From NCBI GenBank assembly GCA_946482165.1, contig CAMLQS010000081.1, forward strand, positions 1 through 16,639: a stretch of 16,639 nucleotides of DNA. Direction: 5' to 3'. Made by a program: the position numbers and the translations under genes. The stretch comes from an uncultured Verrucomicrobiota bacterium. GTDB taxonomy: Bacteria; Verrucomicrobiota; Verrucomicrobiae; Opitutales; Opitutaceae. The notes beneath the pieces are model-generated. The model saw nothing but the letters and a program-made list of their open reading frames with translations. It had not been told where the DNA came from and made no database searches. Below are positions 1,693-16,561 of this stretch, piece after piece; the stretch's first letter is position 1, and each line of letters opens with the position of its first letter.

Positions 1693-3228
1693 TTACAGAT
1701 CGAAGCGGACGATGGTGAAGTCGTCGTCGAGGGGACCGGGGCCGTGGAGGGCGCGAACTTGGGTGTGCAGGGCGTCGAGATCGTTGGTGCCAGGGACGCG
1801 CGAGTGGCCGAGGAAGTCGCGGAGCTCGTCCAAGCTCCACATGTCTCCGGTGTCGGCGCGTTCGATTTCGTAGACGCCGTCGCTGAGGAGGTAGAGCCGC
1901 GCGGGGCCGGGGATGTGGCGCGTGAAGGTCTTGTAGAACATGCCTTCGAGACCGCCGATCACCATGCCGGCGCCCGCGAGGGGTTCGGCGGGGGCGGAGG
2001 AATCGTTCGCGGGCGCGGACGCCGGGGCCGGCGTCCCTCCAAGCAGCAGGGCGGGAGGGTGGCCGCCGGCGGCGAAGCGGAGCGTGCGCGTCGAGGCCTG
2101 CCAGACGCCATACCAGAGGGTGAAATACATCTCGTTTTGGCGCTCCATGAGGAAGGCGTTGTTGAGCGCGGCGAGGACGAGGCCGGGGTCGCGGAAATCG
2201 ACTCCGGGCAGCGAGGAGCCGCGGAGGACGTTGATGGCGGCGGCGGAGAGCAAGGCGGCGCCGACGCCGTGGCCGCAGACGTCGAGGAGGTAGAGGGCGA
2301 AATGATCGTCGTCGATCCAGTGGTAGCCGAAGGAGTCGCCGCCGAGCTCGGTGGAAGGAACCAGACGCCAGTCGACGTTGATGGCGCGGCAGGGGCCGGG
2401 CGCGGGAAGGAGGGAGCGGATGTAGTTTTCCGCTTCGGTGAGTTCGGCGCGAAGGCGGGATTGCGTCTGCTCGATGGTGTGGAGGTAGGAAGCTTCCTGG
2501 TCGCGGAAACGTTTTTTCTGAAGCCCGGCTCCGATGCGCGCGCGGAGGAGGACGGGGTTGAAGGGTTTGGGGAGAAAATCCTCGGCGCCGTTTTCAATGC
2601 ACTTCACGACGGCGGCGATCTCGTCGAGGGCGGAGATCATGATGACGGGGAGGTGGCGGAGGGCGGGGGCGGCCTTGAGCGCGCGGAGGGTGGAAAAGCC
2701 GTCGAGCACGGGCATCATCATGTCGAGCAGCACAAGATCGAAGGGCTCGGCGCGGAGGCGGGCGATGGCGGCCTCGCCGTCCCCCGCCTCGGCGACGGTG
2801 TGGCCCTGGCGGGTGAGTTGGCGGACGAGGACGTCGCGGTTTCCGGGTTCGTCGTCGACGACGAGGATGCGGCCGGGATCGGGGGCGGGGGTGTCGGCTG
2901 ATTCCGCCGCGGAGGCGGCGAGGAGGGCGGCGACGTCGAGTGGCGGAGCGACCACGCCCGAGGCAGGCGTGGAATGGCCATTGCCTGATGGGGAATGACC
3001 AATGGCGGGCGCCAGGGTCACTCGGGCGTCGGTGAGGTTCTCCGTGATGAGCGTGAGGAGCTGCTGGGCGGCGCGGCGGATTTTGTGCAGGTCGGGCGCG
3101 TAGGTTTCCCCGTGGCCGGCGTCGCCGACCTCGTCGATGAGGAGTTCGCTGTAACCGAGGATCTGGTTGATCGGGGTGCGGAGGTCGTGGCGAAGCTGGG
3201 CGAGCGGGGAGGGGGCGGCGGAGGACAT
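1693..3228 (-). CDS. HisKA - response regulator receiver - SpoIIE/PP2C phosphatase protein
   Basis: A 511-aa soluble protein with three parts. Residues 9-65 are a HisKA-like helical pair with an intact H-box (LRHDLRTPINQILGYSE, His14) but no HATPase domain. Residues 119-235 are a receiver domain with acidic pair D125/D126, phospho-acceptor D169 (LVLLDMMMPVLDG), S199 and K221 (LPKPF). A coiled segment at about 240-275 links to a SpoIIE-type Ser/Thr phosphatase with metal-binding motifs GGDSFG (D298), LLDVCGHG (D316) and a terminal DDDFTIVRF. Receiver-SpoIIE proteins are usually anti-sigma-antagonist phosphatases switched by phosphorylation. The N-terminal HisKA may dimerise or dock with the membrane kinase encoded 65 nt downstream, whose HisKA is clearly similar. 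No anti-sigma or STAS gene is visible in the window, so its target is unknown. The ATG at 3228 lacks a Shine-Dalgarno motif; the leader is pyrimidine-rich. Confidence 0.92.
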   Translation of the reverse strand: MSSAAPSPLAQLRHDLRTPINQILGYSELLIDEVGDAGHGETYAPDLHKIRRAAQQLLTLITENLTDARVTLAPAIGHSPSGNGHSTPASGVVAPPLDVAALLAASAAESADTPAPDPGRILVVDDEPGNRDVLVRQLTRQGHTVAEAGDGEAAIARLRAEPFDLVLLDMMMPVLDGFSTLRALKAAPALRHLPVIMISALDEIAAVVKCIENGAEDFLPKPFNPVLLRARIGAGLQKKRFRDQEASYLHTIEQTQSRLRAELTEAENYIRSLLPAPGPCRAINVDWRLVPSTELGGDSFGYHWIDDDHFALYLLDVCGHGVGAALLSAAAINVLRGSSLPGVDFRDPGLVLAALNNAFLMERQNEMYFTLWYGVWQASTRTLRFAAGGHPPALLLGGTPAPASAPANDSSAPAEPLAGAGMVIGGLEGMFYKTFTRHIPGPARLYLLSDGVYEIERADTGDMWSLDELRDFLGHSRVPGTNDLDALHTQVRALHGPGPLDDDFTIVRFDL

Positions 3229-10948: not shown

Positions 10949-12250
10949 ATGGCCAACACCGCTACCCTTCATATCGACGGCAAGGAACTCCAATTACCCG
11001 TAATCATTGGTTCTGAAGGGGAACGGGCGGTAGATATCGGCAAGCTCCGCGCGGACACGGGTTACATCACCTACGACGACGGCTTCGGCAACACCGGGTC
11101 CTGCCTCAGCAAAATCACGTTTATCGACGGCGAAGTCGGCGTGTTGCGCTATCGCGGCTATCCGATCGAGCAGCTGGCCGAGAAGTCCAACTTCATCGAA
11201 AGTTCGCTGCTGGTGATGAACGGCGAGCTGCCCACGCCGGACGCGCGCGCGGCCTTTTCGCAGCTTCTCACCGCCAACGCGCCCCTCCGCGAGGGTTTGG
11301 TGCGCTTCATCCAAAGCTTCCCTCGCGACGCGCATCCGATGGCGGTGCTCTCCGCCACCCTCAACGCGCTCGGCGCCTATTATCCGCACCTCGCGAGCAA
11401 CAACCACCAGAACGATCTCGAGCATTTCGACGAGGCCGCCGCGATCGCCATCTCCAAGGTCCGCACCATCGCCGCGCACACCTATCGAGTGAGCAAGGGG
11501 CTGCCCTTCAATTATCCGAATCCAAAACTTGGATACTGCGAGAACTTCCTGCACCTGATGTTCTCCGAGCCCTACGCGGAATACGTGCCGACCCCCGAGG
11601 TCGCGCAGGCGCTCAACCTCTTCCTTCTGCTCCACGCCGACCACGAGCAGAACTGCTCCACCTCGACCGTGCGCATGGTGGCCTCGGCCGGAGCGAATCT
11701 CTTCGCCTCGATCTCGGCCGGCGTGAACGCCCTCTGGGGTCCGCTGCACGGCGGCGCCAACATGGCGGTGATCGAGATGTTGAAGAACATCCACGCCGAG
11801 GGCGACGACGGCACCAAGTTCATCGCCGCGGCCAAGGCCGGCAAGGGCGAGCGCCTGATGGGCTTCGGCCACCGCGTCTACAAGAACTACGATCCGCGCG
11901 CGAAGATCATCAAGACCTCCTTCTACAAGGCCCTCGCCTCGCTCGGCATCAAGGACGACCCGCTCCTCAACATCGCGATGAAGCTGGAGGATTGCGCGCT
12001 CAACGACCCGTATTTCGTGCAGCGCAAGCTCTACCCGAACGTCGACTTCTACTCGGGCCTGATCATGCGCGCGCTGGGCATCCCGGAGAACATGTTCACG
12101 GTGATGTTCGCCATCGGCCGCATGCCCGGCTGGATCGCGCAGTGGCGCGAGGTCGCCGCCAATCCGAAGCTCAAGATCTACCGCCCCCGCCAGGTCTACG
12201 TCGGCGAGCCGCAACGCAATTACGTCCCGGCGAATCTGCGCCAGGGTTGA
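10949..12250 (+). CDS. gltA: Citrate synthase
   Basis: A 433-aa enzyme that condenses acetyl-CoA and oxaloacetate to citrate, the entry step of the TCA cycle. The catalytic triad can be placed: H267 in [13 protein letters not shown]308 in [15 protein letters not shown] and D366 in [10 protein letters not shown], close to E. coli H264, H305 and D362. The N-terminus ([14 protein letters not shown], then [29 protein letters not shown]) has the beta-sheet extension of the Gram-negative hexameric type, which is commonly NADH-sensitive; that regulation is inferred from family. It ends with IARMP-like [11 protein letters not shown] and a typical [16 protein letters not shown]. It is transcribed alone, with a possible promoter in 10900-10934 and a strong terminator at 12306. 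The leader has only a GGGG run 3 nt from the ATG. Confidence 0.97.
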
Positions 12251-12305
12251 TGGAATGCGGCGCATTCGCGCCGCGTGTTCCGCGGTTCGACAGAAATTCC
12301 CAAAG

Positions 12306-12330
12306 GCCGGCTCCGTGGAGCCGGCTTTTT
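12306..12330 (+). terminator. Intrinsic terminator after gltA
   Basis: GCCGGCTC (12306-12313) and GAGCCGGC (12318-12325) form an 8-bp GC stem with a CGTG loop, followed by TTTTTCG. It begins 56 nt after the gltA stop. Confidence 0.85.
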
Positions 12331-12370
12331 CGTATAGCGGTGCTCGTGCCGGGCGCGAAGGAAGCGAAGA

Positions 12371-12390
12371 ACGCGGGCGCGCCCCCGCGT
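12371..12390. other. Short GC hairpin upstream of the MITE
   Basis: ACGCGGG (12371-12377) pairs with CCCGCGT (12384-12390) around a 6-base loop. It has no T-run and lies between the gltA terminator and the palindromic element. I see no gene around it. The rest of 12331-12395 holds nothing I can identify. Confidence 0.35.
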
Positions 12391-12395
12391 GTCAC

Positions 12396-12570
12396 ATCAC
12401 CCTAGATTCGGCGATAGCCCCGGCGAAAGATCGCTCAAGTTGCTGAATCAGATGGTGATTGCGGCGACCCGAAGGCGCACCCGGCGGGTGCGTCGAGTGG
12501 TCGATGCGATCAGCAGATGGTCAGCAGGTTGTGCGAGATGAGTCGCGGCTATCGCCGGATCTAGGATCAC
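12396..12570. mobile_element. 165-bp palindromic MITE, IS1380/ISEcp1-like ends, with 5-bp target duplication
   Basis: The element 12401-12565 begins CCTAGATTCGGCGATAGCC and ends with its inverse (12547-12565) with one mismatch, which would be a G-U pair in RNA. It is flanked directly by ATCAC on both sides (12396-12400 and 12566-12570), a clean 5-bp target duplication. Its interior is also an imperfect palindrome: 12431-12446 pairs with 12521-12536, further pairing continues inward, and the exact centre is a 7-bp hairpin CGCACCC-GGC-GGGTGCG (12476-12492). No transposase or other ORF fits inside. Ends starting CC, five-base duplications and the string CCTAGATTC are features of IS1380-family elements; from memory the left end of ISEcp1 starts the same way. 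It would be mobilised in trans by a full-length relative elsewhere. Confidence 0.75.
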
Positions 12571-12627
12571 AGGTGCGGGGCCGATCCGGCGTGACGACGG
12601 TTTTGCAGCGTGGAAGACGACAGTTGC

Positions 12628-12667
12628 CACGAAAAGGCCGGCTCCCGAGGAAGCCGGCCTTTTCGTG
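12628..12667. terminator. Bidirectional terminator between gltA and the cyclophilin gene
   Basis: A perfect 16-bp inverted repeat, CACGAAAAGGCCGGCT (12628-12643) and its complement (12652-12667), with an 8-nt loop. The arms carry AAAA/TTTT at the correct place on both strands, so it can end transcription from either side. It lies 24 nt past the stop of the minus-strand gene and is its natural terminator. The core AAGGCCGGCTCC is shared with the gltA terminator. The stretch 12571-12627 before it holds nothing I can identify. Confidence 0.85.
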
Positions 12668-12691
12668 ACCTGAACCACAGTTTGCCGACGC

Positions 12692-15600
12692 TTAGGGCGC
12701 GGGCGTGGCCGGGTTCTTGAATTGGACGCGGCCGGAAACGGTTTGCTCGGCGCCGCCGGAGATAGGCTTCACGAGGGTGAAACCTTCCGCGGTGACGGAG
12801 CCTCCGGCAAGGTTCTCGGCCATCAGGAACGCCCCCTCGAACGGCACCGTCCGGGAGATTGTTCCATCGACGAGGCGGAAGCTGCCTTTGAAAACGCCCG
12901 TGCGGGTGTCGAGCGTTCCTTTGAACTGCGAGGCGTCATTGGCCGCGAAGTCGGCGAAGGGCGCGATCGGCACTTTGTAGGTCACGCCGAGCAGGGCGGG
13001 CAGTTCGCCCGAGGAGGCGCCGAGCTCGGCGCCGGAGAGGACGAGTTCGGTTTTGCCCTTGTTGGCCGTCTGATCGTGCGCGAAGCCGAAATCGCCGAAC
13101 GTGCTGGGATACCAAGGCTCGAGCCGGATATTCAGACCGAGCGGACCGAAGCCCGCGCGATAGTTGGCGGAGGTGGGAAGCGCGGGCTTGGTCCAGTAGG
13201 CATCGGTGCCGGCGCCCGGCGCGACGTAGTGACGCTGGAAGAAGAAGTAGGGCTGGAACTTCGTGACGGAGGTCATCGGCAGCTCGGCGCTAAGCACGCC
13301 GCCGTTGACGGCGACACCGTGGGGGCGGGCGAAGAGGCGGATGCTCTTGTCGACCGCTCCGCGGACCGAGGTGGTCAACGGCGTGCCATCGGCAAGCTTG
13401 CCCTTGAAGTTGAGGCGGCCGTTCGCGGCGGCGGGAGCGGTGGCGTAGCCGCTGCCGGCGGGGAAAGGACGCTCGTCGTCGGATTCGTCGTCGAGCAAGG
13501 CCGGTGTGGTGATCGCGAGGTTGTAGGAGCCGACGTTGGCCCAAGGCGGAGGATTTGCCTTGGAGTGCGCGCCGATCTGACGGCCGGGATTGCCGGAGGG
13601 CAGGGTGTCCGCGTCACCGTCGTCGGGAATGAGGAGAGCGGACGCGATTTCGACGAGCCCGGACGAAGGGGTCTCGCGGGTGCTCAACTTCACCGAGACG
13701 TAGCCGTCCTCGGTGATGGCGAGGTCCGTGAGCACGTAGGCGCGGCCGGCAGGGGCGCCCGGGCGGGCGGCGACCACGGGCGCGGCGAAGGAAAGGGTGC
13801 CGGTGTCGTAGTCGCGGACCACGCGGCCCTTGAGCGGAATGGGTTTCTTGTCCTGCGCGGTATCGAGCGTGCCGGTGAGGACGCCGACTCCGGAGATCGT
13901 GAGCGAGAGTTTGGCGATGTGGACGCCGTCCGCGGGGCTGAGCAGCGCCTCGAAATCGCCGACCGAGCCGCCGACCAAGGGCTCGACGAGGATGTAGTAG
14001 GTGCTGGAGAGGCGGCTGGCTCCTTCGGTGACCGTGAGAACGACTTTGTAGAGGCCGGGCTTGCCGGTGATCACGCCGGTGATGATGCCTTCGTTGTTGA
14101 TCGAGAGGCCGGTGGGGAGTCCCGTTGCGGAGTAGCTTCGGCTCGTTTCAGGCGACGGCGCCGGAGTGCCGGGCAGGACGAAGCTGTTATTCGTTACCAA
14201 GAAGAGGACGCCGGAGACGATGCGCAGCGTCGCGGGGGCGCTGATCGCCTCGCCCGCGGTCGGGCCGAAGGGGGCGGGGGCAGTCTTGAGGACATTGCGC
14301 AGCACGCACCGGTATTGGGTGCCGTCGAGGGCGAGTCCGAAGCCGGCGGTGGTGTTGGCGTCGGAGGGGAGGCGGATGGTGAGCGTGGAGCTGGTGACGT
14401 TGGAGTAGGGCGTGGGCGCTCCGGGAGAGGCGGGGGTGGTGTCGGTGGCTGCGGTGGGCGGGACGTGGTTGACGAGGTTATCCCACTGCCCGGTGGCGGC
14501 GTTCAGGCGCTGCCACTGGTATTTGACGGGGGTGTTGGACGCGGCGGGTTTGGCGGCAACGGAGATCGTCGTCTTGTTATTGAGGTCGCCCTCGGCGTGC
14601 GAAAGGAAGCCGTGGACCATCTTCGCCGGCTGGGTGGCGACTCCGACCGGGACGGTGGTGATGCGCAGCGTGGTGGGCGCTCCCGGCAGTGAAACGGGAC
14701 CGTCGCCAAGGTCATGCGAGATGACGCAGCGGAACTGGTTCAGGTGGAGCGCGAGGGTGTCGAGCGTGTTGATGTCCTGGGAGTTCGCCGCGGGGGTTTC
14801 CGGGCCGGTGAGGCGAACGACCAGCGTGGCGGTCTTGGTGCCGGAGAAGGCGCTGGGGACGGAGGGAAACTCAGGGTTTTCATTGGTGCCGGTGCCTTTC
14901 ACCGCGGCTTTGCGATCGACGAGGGCGATCCAGTCGCCGTTCGGGGCCTTGCGCTGCCACTGGTAGTTCGGCGCGGGATAGGTGCCGCCGACCGCGGGTG
15001 CGGAGAGGCTGAAGGAGGTGCCGAGCTTGGCGGTGGTGTTGGCCGCGAGTTTACCGGTGAAGGCGAGGGTGGTGGTGACGGTGAGCGTGGTGGGCGCGCC
15101 CTCGGCAAGCGGGGCGGTGAAGGCGTCGGAGTTGGCCACCACGAAGCGGAACTGGTCGCCACTGAGGTCGAGGGCGGCGCCAACCTCGTCGGCGTTCGAG
15201 CCGGTGAGGCGGACGGTGAGCGTTTCGGTGTTTACGCCCGAGTAGGCGGTAGGCGCCTCGCTGGTGGAGTCGACCAGATCAACCCAGGGCGAACCGCTGT
15301 CGGAGCGGCGCTGCCATTTGATCGCAAGGGGCCACGCCGTGATATCCGCGTTGAGCGTGAAGGTGGAGCCGAGGGCGGCCTTGGTGGCGGCGGGGAGCTG
15401 CTTGATGACGCGAGGCGGGCCGTTGCGGGTGACGGTGTAAACGGTGTCCGTATAGTGGCCGCTGAGGGCGGTGGCGCGGACGGTGATCAGGGCGCGACCG
15501 CCGAATTTGCCGGGGACGACTTTCAACACGCCGCGCGTGATGGTCGGGGTGGCGGCGGAGGGGTTGTCGTTGGCCGCGATGGAGAAGTTGATCGGGCTCG

Positions 15601-16402
15601 TCTTGGCCGAGGCGGGAACGGACGCGGCGTCGACGGTGCGGAGGGTCGGGAAGGTGACGAAGTGGGACGCGGTTAGGTTGCCGCCAGTAAAGTTGCGAAG
15701 GGGGACCGTATCGAAAGTCGATCCGCTCCCGTCGACGTCCAAGGCAGGGAGGCCGGCGATGCGGTCGAAGATCTTCATGCCGTCGCCCATGACGCGGGCG
15801 AAGACGGTGAAGCCGCCGTTCTGGTTGTCGAGATTGCCGCGGTTGTCGGCGAGGTTGACGAACCACTCGTTGGTCGCGGAGTTCACCTGGCCGCCGAGCT
15901 TGGCCATCGCGAGCGTGCCGCGGGTGTTGGCCACTTTGAACTCGTTGTTGACGGCGGCCTTTTTCGTTACGGTGAGGAGGTTGAGCGGCGGGGCGATTTT
16001 GTAGCCGCCGGTCTGCACGACGAAGCCTTTGACCGAGCGGTGCACGAAGACGCCGTCGTAGGTCTTGATGAGGTCGGCGGCGGCGGTCGATGCAGTGGCG
16101 AGGTAGGACTTGAAGTTGGTGACGGTGTTGGGCGCGTCGGCGGGGAGAAACTCCAGGTAGACGTCGCCGAAGGGGGTGGCCACCTTGGCGAAATCGTTGG
16201 AGATCGTCGGGAACTCGTAGTGGTCGGCCAACGTGAACGAGCGCTGGCTCGCGGGGTTGTCGAGATCGATGGACGGGGTCGGCGCGGACTCCTTGAGGGT
16301 GGGGGCATTGCGGACGATGCCGGTGCCAAAGAGCGACGTGGCGGCGAGGGCGAGGGCGCAAAGCGACGATGCGGCCGCGCGCAGGGTGGGGACGAGGTTC
16401 AT
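12692..16402 (-). CDS. Large secreted protein: cyclophilin-type peptidyl-prolyl isomerase with Ig-like repeats
   Basis: From ATG 16402 this gives 1236 aa. The start is chosen because MNLVPTLRAAASSLCALALAATSLF is a Sec signal peptide; the longer frame from 16558 would bury it. Residues about 71-238 are a cyclophilin domain. R122 in FVHRSVKGF, Q130 in VVQTGG and F181 in NEWFVNL match the active-site Arg, Gln and Phe of the family, and NTRGTLAMAK is present, so it is probably active in proline isomerisation outside the cytoplasm. Three Ig-like units follow, each with WQR (W363, W482, W630), a Y/F-S-x-x-x-[ST]xTL[TV]VRL strand and an FR[CF]V strand. An Ig-like putative-carbohydrate type module (ATGLPTGLSINNEGIITGVI) comes at about 750-810. 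The C-terminal 420 residues are rich in short beta repeats with FKGTLDTRTGVFKGSF. No PEP-CTERM or other anchor is visible. Client and location are unknown. Confidence 0.9.
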   Translation of the reverse strand: MNLVPTLRAAASSLCALALAATSLFGTGIVRNAPTLKESAPTPSIDLDNPASQRSFTLADHYEFPTISNDFAKVATPFGDVYLEFLPADAPNTVTNFKSYLATASTAAADLIKTYDGVFVHRSVKGFVVQTGGYKIAPPLNLLTVTKKAAVNNEFKVANTRGTLAMAKLGGQVNSATNEWFVNLADNRGNLDNQNGGFTVFARVMGDGMKIFDRIAGLPALDVDGSGSTFDTVPLRNFTGGNLTASHFVTFPTLRTVDAASVPASAKTSPINFSIAANDNPSAATPTITRGVLKVVPGKFGGRALITVRATALSGHYTDTVYTVTRNGPPRVIKQLPAATKAALGSTFTLNADITAWPLAIKWQRRSDSGSPWVDLVDSTSEAPTAYSGVNTETLTVRLTGSNADEVGAALDLSGDQFRFVVANSDAFTAPLAEGAPTTLTVTTTLAFTGKLAANTTAKLGTSFSLSAPAVGGTYPAPNYQWQRKAPNGDWIALVDRKAAVKGTGTNENPEFPSVPSAFSGTKTATLVVRLTGPETPAANSQDINTLDTLALHLNQFRCVISHDLGDGPVSLPGAPTTLRITTVPVGVATQPAKMVHGFLSHAEGDLNNKTTISVAAKPAASNTPVKYQWQRLNAATGQWDNLVNHVPPTAATDTTPASPGAPTPYSNVTSSTLTIRLPSDANTTAGFGLALDGTQYRCVLRNVLKTAPAPFGPTAGEAISAPATLRIVSGVLFLVTNNSFVLPGTPAPSPETSRSYSATGLPTGLSINNEGIITGVITGKPGLYKVVLTVTEGASRLSSTYYILVEPLVGGSVGDFEALLSPADGVHIAKLSLTISGVGVLTGTLDTAQDKKPIPLKGRVVRDYDTGTLSFAAPVVAARPGAPAGRAYVLTDLAITEDGYVSVKLSTRETPSSGLVEIASALLIPDDGDADTLPSGNPGRQIGAHSKANPPPWANVGSYNLAITTPALLDDESDDERPFPAGSGYATAPAAANGRLNFKGKLADGTPLTTSVRGAVDKSIRLFARPHGVAVNGGVLSAELPMTSVTKFQPYFFFQRHYVAPGAGTDAYWTKPALPTSANYRAGFGPLGLNIRLEPWYPSTFGDFGFAHDQTANKGKTELVLSGAELGASSGELPALLGVTYKVPIAPFADFAANDASQFKGTLDTRTGVFKGSFRLVDGTISRTVPFEGAFLMAENLAGGSVTAEGFTLVKPISGGAEQTVSGRVQFKNPATPAP

Positions 16403-16432
16403 TCGAAAGAGGTCGGCAACTAAGGAGCGGCG

Positions 16433-16448
16433 ATGGCCGCAAGGCCAT
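16433..16448. other. Hairpin upstream of the cyclophilin gene
   Basis: ATGGCC-GCAA-GGCCAT is a perfect 6-bp stem-loop 30 bp upstream of the start codon, so it would lie in the 5' leader of the minus-strand mRNA or its promoter. The same GGCCGCAAGGC core appears again at 16551-16561 and at the frr stop. Confidence 0.4.
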
Positions 16449-16561
16449 GCGAAAGCGCCATTCGCGGGCGAAGCGGCGAAATCGTCACGGCGCTGTTCTA
16501 TGGGAGGTCCTGAAATCTCCGGCGGGGGCTGCGTTGAGAGGTAAACGGCAGGCCGCAAGGC

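Follow-up and report, generated by a model that had tools for sequence, protein, structure and literature searches.

Between the genes for citrate synthase and a cyclophilin-domain protein, the window (the whole 16,639-nucleotide stretch of DNA analysed here) carries an imperfect palindrome of 165 bp. This palindrome is very probably a non-autonomous MITE of an IS1380-type transposon lineage, inserting by duplication of a 5-bp NTNAN target. Homologous palindromes form a family in related genomes; copies are flanked by exact duplications; the ends and the target site match those of IS1380 elements; and one copy is absent from the orthologous site of a relative. Movement itself, and its manner, would be the work of an IS1380 transposase.

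The palindrome and its surroundings

An earlier, sequence-only reading of the window had described the palindrome and an ATCAC duplication on both flanks, and this observation was confirmed (Table 1). The 19-bp terminal repeats of that reading are indeed present and face inward, but CCTAGATTCGGCGATAGCC and CCTAGATCCGGCGATAGCC are identical at 18 of 19 positions, so that the repeat carries one mismatch. The apex is centred, as had been claimed: its loop occupies 12483-12485, and the element's centre is 12483. Coding capacity was also rightly denied to the element. Five ORFs of 50-137 aa touch it, mutually overlapping or entering from outside, and none is a plausible gene. The element is therefore short, transposase-free and bounded by terminal inverted repeats.

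The two ends are the sole sites in the window at three or fewer mismatches (chance expectation 0.01; two sites in 0 of 200 shuffles). An inverted-repeat search gave arms of 22 nt that are 91% complementary. Folded as DNA, the element reaches -57.4 kcal/mol, against -30.8 (sd 3.0) over 200 shuffles, none of which folded equally well (z -8.8). With R1, a covariance model of the family described below, the window copy scores 175.3 bits on the plus strand and 65.5 on the minus strand, R1 having been built with this copy in the plus orientation. The commonest form of the left-arm motif across the family is CGCAAGATGCTG.

Table 1. Features of the palindromic element, in window coordinates
Feature	Position	Strand	Basis and remarks
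Left target duplication, ATCAC	12396-12400		Sequence; fits NTNAN, not the narrower YTNAR
Left terminal inverted repeat, CCTAGATTCGGCGATAGCC	12401-12419	+	End search and inverted-repeat search; first 9 bases as in the ISEcp1 left end
Palindromic element (very probably a MITE)	12401-12565	+ (best-fit orientation to the family model)	Fold z -8.8; R1 match
Left-arm subterminal motif, CTCAAGTTGCTG	12434-12445	+	Offset 33 from the left end
Apex hairpin, CGCACCCGGCGGGTGCG	12476-12492	+	Fold; apex stem covaries over 60 copies
Right-arm counterpart motif, CACAACCTGCTG (minus-strand reading)	12522-12533	-	Offset 32 from the right end
Right terminal inverted repeat, CCTAGATCCGGCGATAGCC (minus-strand reading)	12547-12565	-	First 17 bases identical at 15/17 to the L161 IS1380 ends
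Right target duplication, ATCAC	12566-12570		Sequence; duplication tally of family copies

Upstream lies citrate synthase (gltA, 10949-12250; Pfam Citrate_synt), and downstream a convergent cyclophilin-domain protein (12692-16558, minus strand). The copy is intergenic by position, 146 bases past the gltA stop. A simple scan of 12200-12750 found no sigma-70 promoter or terminator consensus. Two G+C-rich look-alike hairpins flank the element, at 12302-12333 and 12628-12667 (AAAGGCCGGCTCC...GGAGCCGGCTTTT and CACGAAAAGGCCGGCTCCC...GGAAGCCGGCCTTTTCGTG); they look like terminators, though the simple scan found none there. In one near relative (G113) a similar hairpin lies directly 3' of gltA. Rfam returned nine weak matches, every one below its gathering score: seven inside the neighbouring hairpin (12616-12678), STnc250 spanning that hairpin, and P24 overlapping the element (12.0 of 100 bits). 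Elsewhere in the window (1693-3225, minus strand), a single protein combines HisKA, response-regulator, and SpoIIE phosphatase domains.

A scattered family with NTNAN duplications

A DNA search of 252 genomes from the family of G001 identified homologous full palindromes in three: G121, G217, and G109. Model R1, built from these and the window copy, matched in 30 of the 252 genomes (at most 11 candidates scored per genome, so that copy numbers per genome are "at least" values). A second covariance model, R2, built from 60 copies, matched in 16 of 286 genomes sampled across the class, ten of them outside the first set (for example, G353 and G364). The homologous palindromes are about 162 bp long and, in relatives, occur as multiple copies at differing loci. 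R1 gave 98 matches in 90 loci; removal of seven second-strand matches left 91 copies from 31 genomes, window included, a subset from which the contig-end loci L117, L119, and L128 are left out.

Exact 5-bp duplications, ATCAC among them, flank 34 of the 91 copies, against a mean of 3.5 and a maximum of 11 with shuffled right flanks (500 trials). At least four of five bases are duplicated in 63 copies (shuffled mean 23.3, maximum 36; 500 trials). In copies and controls alike, the tally permitted a boundary shift of up to 3 bases, the same at both ends. All 34 exact duplications, from 16 genomes, conform to NTNAN, with T at position 2 and A at position 4; 32 of them also conform to YTNAR, ATCAC being among the two exceptions. 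Copies with differing 5-bp duplications, anticipated by the sequence-only reading, thus exist in relatives. The remaining 57 copies lack an exact duplication, which fits old insertions, as expected, without proving them. Among the 63 copies with at least four duplicated bases, 57 are 160-166 bp long.

The family is not tied to the citrate synthase locus. Citrate synthase was found in 236 of the 252 genomes, and the element is absent from all 30 of the closest of these loci (1.5 kb on each side, contig permitting, some loci being cut by contig ends; best E 0.07). As far as relatives show, then, the palindrome is not the single, locus-conserved sequence that the sequence-only reading had named as the outcome against it. 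The nearest genomes by citrate synthase are G001 and G113 (each at 95% amino-acid identity, for G113 over 401 of 433 residues) and G002 (94%). A plasmid search with citrate synthase was uninformative, its matches all being below 60% identity.

An empty site, also anticipated, was obtained in part: of two sites tried one worked, for another copy and with diverged flanks. For the window copy at gltA, the downstream stretches of the nearest relatives are too diverged to be of use. The orthologous place in G381 lacks copy L261 of G364 (duplication TTTAA), having 67 bp where G364 has 240 bp; flank identity is 81% immediately beside the gap on one side, rising to 88-90% farther from it, and is also 88-90% on the opposite side. 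At this place G451 has a 93-bp gap, which could not contain the element, and the orthologous stretch of G497 has no element match; the junction alignment is poor in both. For copy L122 of G120, the best flanks in G109 (82% and 73%) enclose no element match, but the G109 stretch is longer than the L122 region (371 vs 323 bp) and so is uninformative on emptiness.

The window's own end type is rare. One genome from each of 84,980 species was scanned, and CCTAGATYCGGCGATAGCC was found at three sites, in the Verrucomicrobiota MAGs G001 and G002 and in one proteobacterial MAG; none of the three bounds a transposase in the sequence examined. (The proteobacterial site, L002, is a single 19-bp end, unpaired within the 800 bases inspected, and was taken as chance.) With one mismatch permitted in the first 18 bases, five sites appear in four of the 252 genomes, and two in the reversed control. 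At up to three mismatches, G001 has 7 sites (reversed control, 5) and G002 has 6 (control, 1), low counts that argue against abundance of this end. Viral contigs gave no matches to the end pattern. By the same three-mismatch measure, G118 has 54 sites for the end pattern CCCGGATACCGCGATTAT and G119 has 37 (reversed control, 1 and 0); of 13 genomes searched, six are near background (G109, G121, G001, G070, G074, and G103).

Reduced or broken copies accompany the full ones. G001 contains a 43-bp palindrome with the window end type and an exact TTGAA duplication (L001, contig C146, 393-435, minus strand); it sits just after an apparent gene end. In G002 (L035, contig C149, from 1501), a left arm of the window subfamily is interrupted by about 170 bp and has no right end. 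The longer right end ATCCGGCGATAGCCGCGGCGCG (up to three mismatches) occurs four times in G001, six times in G002, and not at all in six other relatives; its reversed control matched three times in G113 and twice in G111, so some of the G001 and G002 sites may be chance. Mini-palindromes of 31 bp, each made of two overlapping CCCGGATACCGCGATTAT-type ends (G118:C395:1915-1945 and G117:C8:33810-33840), are possibly deletion products. Two copies in G377, L266 and L279, lie on different contigs yet agree fully in the element and share their 10-base flanks, and so probably represent a duplicated stretch.

Many copies lie exactly at gene ends. Among the 63 copies with at least four duplicated bases, the duplication overlaps a stop codon in 18, lies between genes in 40, and falls within coding-like ORFs in 5; control NTNAN sites fell in such ORFs in 1855 of 3742 cases. 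(A stop codon here is the end of a coding-like ORF of at least 100 codons, with ORFs judged by codon-position G+C, not annotation.) Noncoding NTNAN sites of the same loci overlap a stop codon in 58 of 1887 cases (Fisher p 7.7e-13 vs copies) and YTNAR sites in 23 of 530 (p 2.1e-9), copies of one genome being only partly independent in these statistics. The stop codon is at the left in nine copies, at the right in eight, and at both in one, which shows no strand preference. At its simplest, the pattern would mean that stop codons are over-represented among the T-N-A targets of G+C-rich genomes, and that an insertion there regains its stop through the duplication. The excess may reflect target preference or later selection, which are indistinguishable here.

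Ends in common with IS1380 elements

The Pfam model that covers IS1380 transposases, PF13701, matched in 81 of the 252 genomes, 65 of them over the cut-off. Among the 30 element-bearing genomes it matched in 10 and, at E 0.001, found nothing in the other 20, including G001, G002, and the single-contig, 4.0-Mb G109. For three transposases tested, the best NCBIfam match was IS1380, two scoring over the cut-off and one (L161) below. Candidate end pairs were found at 20 of 63 IS1380 loci, the other 43, many of them fragments or contig-cut, giving none. Three pairs (L159, L178, and L218) were dropped as unconvincing, and L151 and L149 were added to the remaining 17, for 19 elements.

Where ends could be placed, these elements have CC ends and 5-bp duplications, in line with the statement of the sequence-only reading that such ends and 4-5-bp duplications typify the family. 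Its other statement, that the ISEcp1 left end begins CCTAGATTC, agrees with the published account of that end (PMC7864471). Exact duplications flank 25 of 31 IS1380 copies, in 16 of which a four-of-five duplication had itself served in finding the ends; 24 of the 25 conform to NTNAN, the exception being L197 (TAATA). This count omits L157 (left end unaligned), L182 (weak ends), and L149 (contig ends within the right duplication). The copies in G213, aligned without regard to duplication, gave 11 exact duplications in 15. That genome has undergone a recent burst: it has 23 equal-score IS1380 matches, and 15 of 16 aligned copies (L157, L161, and L163-L176) carry CCTAAATCCGGCAATAG at both ends of a 1741-bp element.

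Ends of the palindromes resemble those of the transposons. Of the 63 palindromes with at least four duplicated bases (the comparison omits the 28 copies with fewer), 29 match one of the 19 elements at 14 or more of 17 end bases, a level reached by 0 of 2000 shuffled ends. Two end types agree at 17/17: CCTAAAAACGGCGATAG, in the G121 palindrome and an IS element of G112; and CCGGACTCATGCAGTTG, in palindromes of G070, G074, G099, and G103 and an IS element of G045. The end CCCGAAAACCGAAGTTG of the G109 palindrome agrees at 16/17 with an element of G084, and the window end CCTAGATCCGGCGATAG at 15/17 with L161 of G213. Because these end types (15/17 to 17/17) and the NTNAN motif are shared, the proposal of a non-autonomous IS1380-type MITE is well supported.

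All of these identities are between genomes. No single genome was found to contain a palindrome and an IS1380 element that share their ends, which lowers confidence in the IS1380 explanation. The full-length partner envisaged in the sequence-only reading was likewise found in kind only: related genomes have complete IS1380 elements with the same kind of ends and the NTNAN duplication, but the scan of 84,980 species' genomes found none with the window's exact ends. Probably many copies are stranded, or are served by a transposase missed here.

The left arm may also have a counterpart in the transposons. Among 19 IS1380 left ends, 8 give the highest score for its motif at the offset seen in the MITE, against 0 of 19 right ends, several of the elements being close relatives; the offset is 33-34 in L148, L205, L207, L211, and L222. 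This likeness weakly suggests a tie between left arm and IS1380 left ends, but a profile search of whole IS1380 sequences gave nothing significant. A derivation of the apex from a similar small hairpin near the IS1380 left end was considered and dropped: that hairpin lies near the start of the transposase frame, at a varying distance, and here too the profile search gave nothing significant.

These observations suggest a route for the element. An IS1380 transposase encoded at another locus would bind the CCTAG... ends, excise the element, and insert it at a 5-bp NTNAN target, which would thereby be duplicated. Copies would survive chiefly in intergenic positions, in many cases directly on a stop codon, which the duplication would rebuild. 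Published accounts describe IS1380 members as tolerant of a poorly matching second end (PMC9330008, PMC10454011), a tolerance that could ease a change of partner by the MITE.

The folded core and its possible meaning

The outer 18 bp vary strongly from one subfamily to another, while the inner 120 nt of all of them are recognisably one sequence and one structure. RNAalifold, applied to a MAFFT alignment of 60 copies, gave 40 pairs, 39 of them with two-sided changes. Pairing is intact in 92.9% of cells; the share drops to 67.5% when partners are shuffled and to 33-40% when they are displaced by 1-3 columns. These figures overstate independence, since the structure comes from the same alignment and the copies are related and were found with structure models. 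Core pairs (24) are 92.2% intact and end pairs (16) 93.9%. The stem retains a two-base purine-purine mismatch: columns 40/143 are unpaired in 55 of 60 copies, and columns 41/142 in 54 of 60.

One explanation, plausible though short of an even chance, would supplement the MITE proposal: the core is also kept for a role as a folded single strand, DNA or RNA, such as a hairpin bound by a protein or by the transposase. The two-sided changes and the pairing excess speak for such a role, as do core pairs about as intact as the end pairs, the retained mismatch, and the narrow range of lengths. The lack of strand preference at stop codons argues against a role for a sense-strand RNA, however; a structure derived from the alignment, with related copies found by a structure model, leans the figures toward folding; and arms that bind one protein as a duplex would covary too.

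More tentatively, the palindrome may be ancient. It would have spread class-wide by virtue of a selected hairpin core, with its fixed purine mismatch and length of about 162 bp, swapping ends across IS1380 lineages; the hairpin would aid movement or tolerance, and NTNAN would steer insertions to stop codons that are then rebuilt.

Covariation could also arise with no selection on the fold. Template-switch correction occurs in bacteria, and in a quasi-palindrome each arm could template the repair of the other. Such arm-to-arm correction would yield two-sided changes in all helices, as observed, but rampant repair should have erased the mismatch at columns 40-41/142-143; the conserved mismatch thus argues against correction, which we consider unlikely. 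A conserved gene for a structured RNA, lying 3' of citrate synthase, would account for a very stable, covarying hairpin, but is most improbable given its absence from the 30 closest loci, copies at many differing loci, and no Rfam match near its gathering score. Equally improbable is a repeat of the REP/BIME type, mobilised by a RAYT tyrosine transposase: the family is palindromic, extragenic, and multicopy in Verrucomicrobiota, but REPs carry a GTAG or CGTC tag and span 20-40 bp, whereas these elements have CC-starting ends (CCTAG) with no such tag, a length of about 162 bp (165 bp in the window), and a 5-bp duplication.

Extragenic palindromes of the REP kind are known in Verrucomicrobia and sometimes supply a stop codon, and the verrucomicrobium Opitutus terrae is described as rich in GTAG REPs, a different kind of repeat (PMC3733652).

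As an IS1380-type MITE, the window element shares with IS1380 and ISEcp1 its CC ends, 5-bp target duplication, and CCTAGATTC start, the left end reported for ISEcp1 (PMC7864471), and the IS1380 elements of relatives share NTNAN and the end types. It differs in its nearly full-length palindrome and its size: 165 bp with no transposase, against about 1.5-1.75 kb. Gene mobilisation by IS1380 members, as described in PMC9330008, employs one IS copy and a misread second end (TMos), not a MITE.

Correia and ERIC elements belong among the hairpin-forming MITEs of bacteria. Members of this group (TIMEs and others, as described in PMC4133298) are likewise short and non-coding, with terminal repeats and a strong fold, and lie mostly near or between genes; one of them, MITEPye1, has been linked to IS1182 (PMC11578231). 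The palindromes described here differ in an IS1380-type 5-bp NTNAN duplication in place of the usual TA, in a single core with several end types across many genera, and in frequent siting on stop codons. The open-access literature searched, including PMC3281130, PMC3542288, and PMC10813416, offers no account of this family or of an IS1380-linked MITE. As far as searched, therefore, the palindromes apparently constitute a new MITE family with IS1380-type ends and target site.

Together, these results add a MITE family scattered across the class and very probably tied to IS1380, to which ISEcp1, a mobiliser of resistance genes, also belongs. Siting on stop codons offers a simple route by which a mobile element could lie beside genes and leave them unbroken in G+C-rich genomes. 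It also carries a warning for annotation: in these genomes, a strong hairpin that follows a stop codon is not necessarily a terminator. Moreover, the core outlasts the terminal repeats, the opposite of what is expected of a MITE, so that both core function and transposase switching become testable. If the palindrome is indeed ancient, with a selected core, the hairpin, in addition to the ends, would be part of how these elements move or are tolerated.
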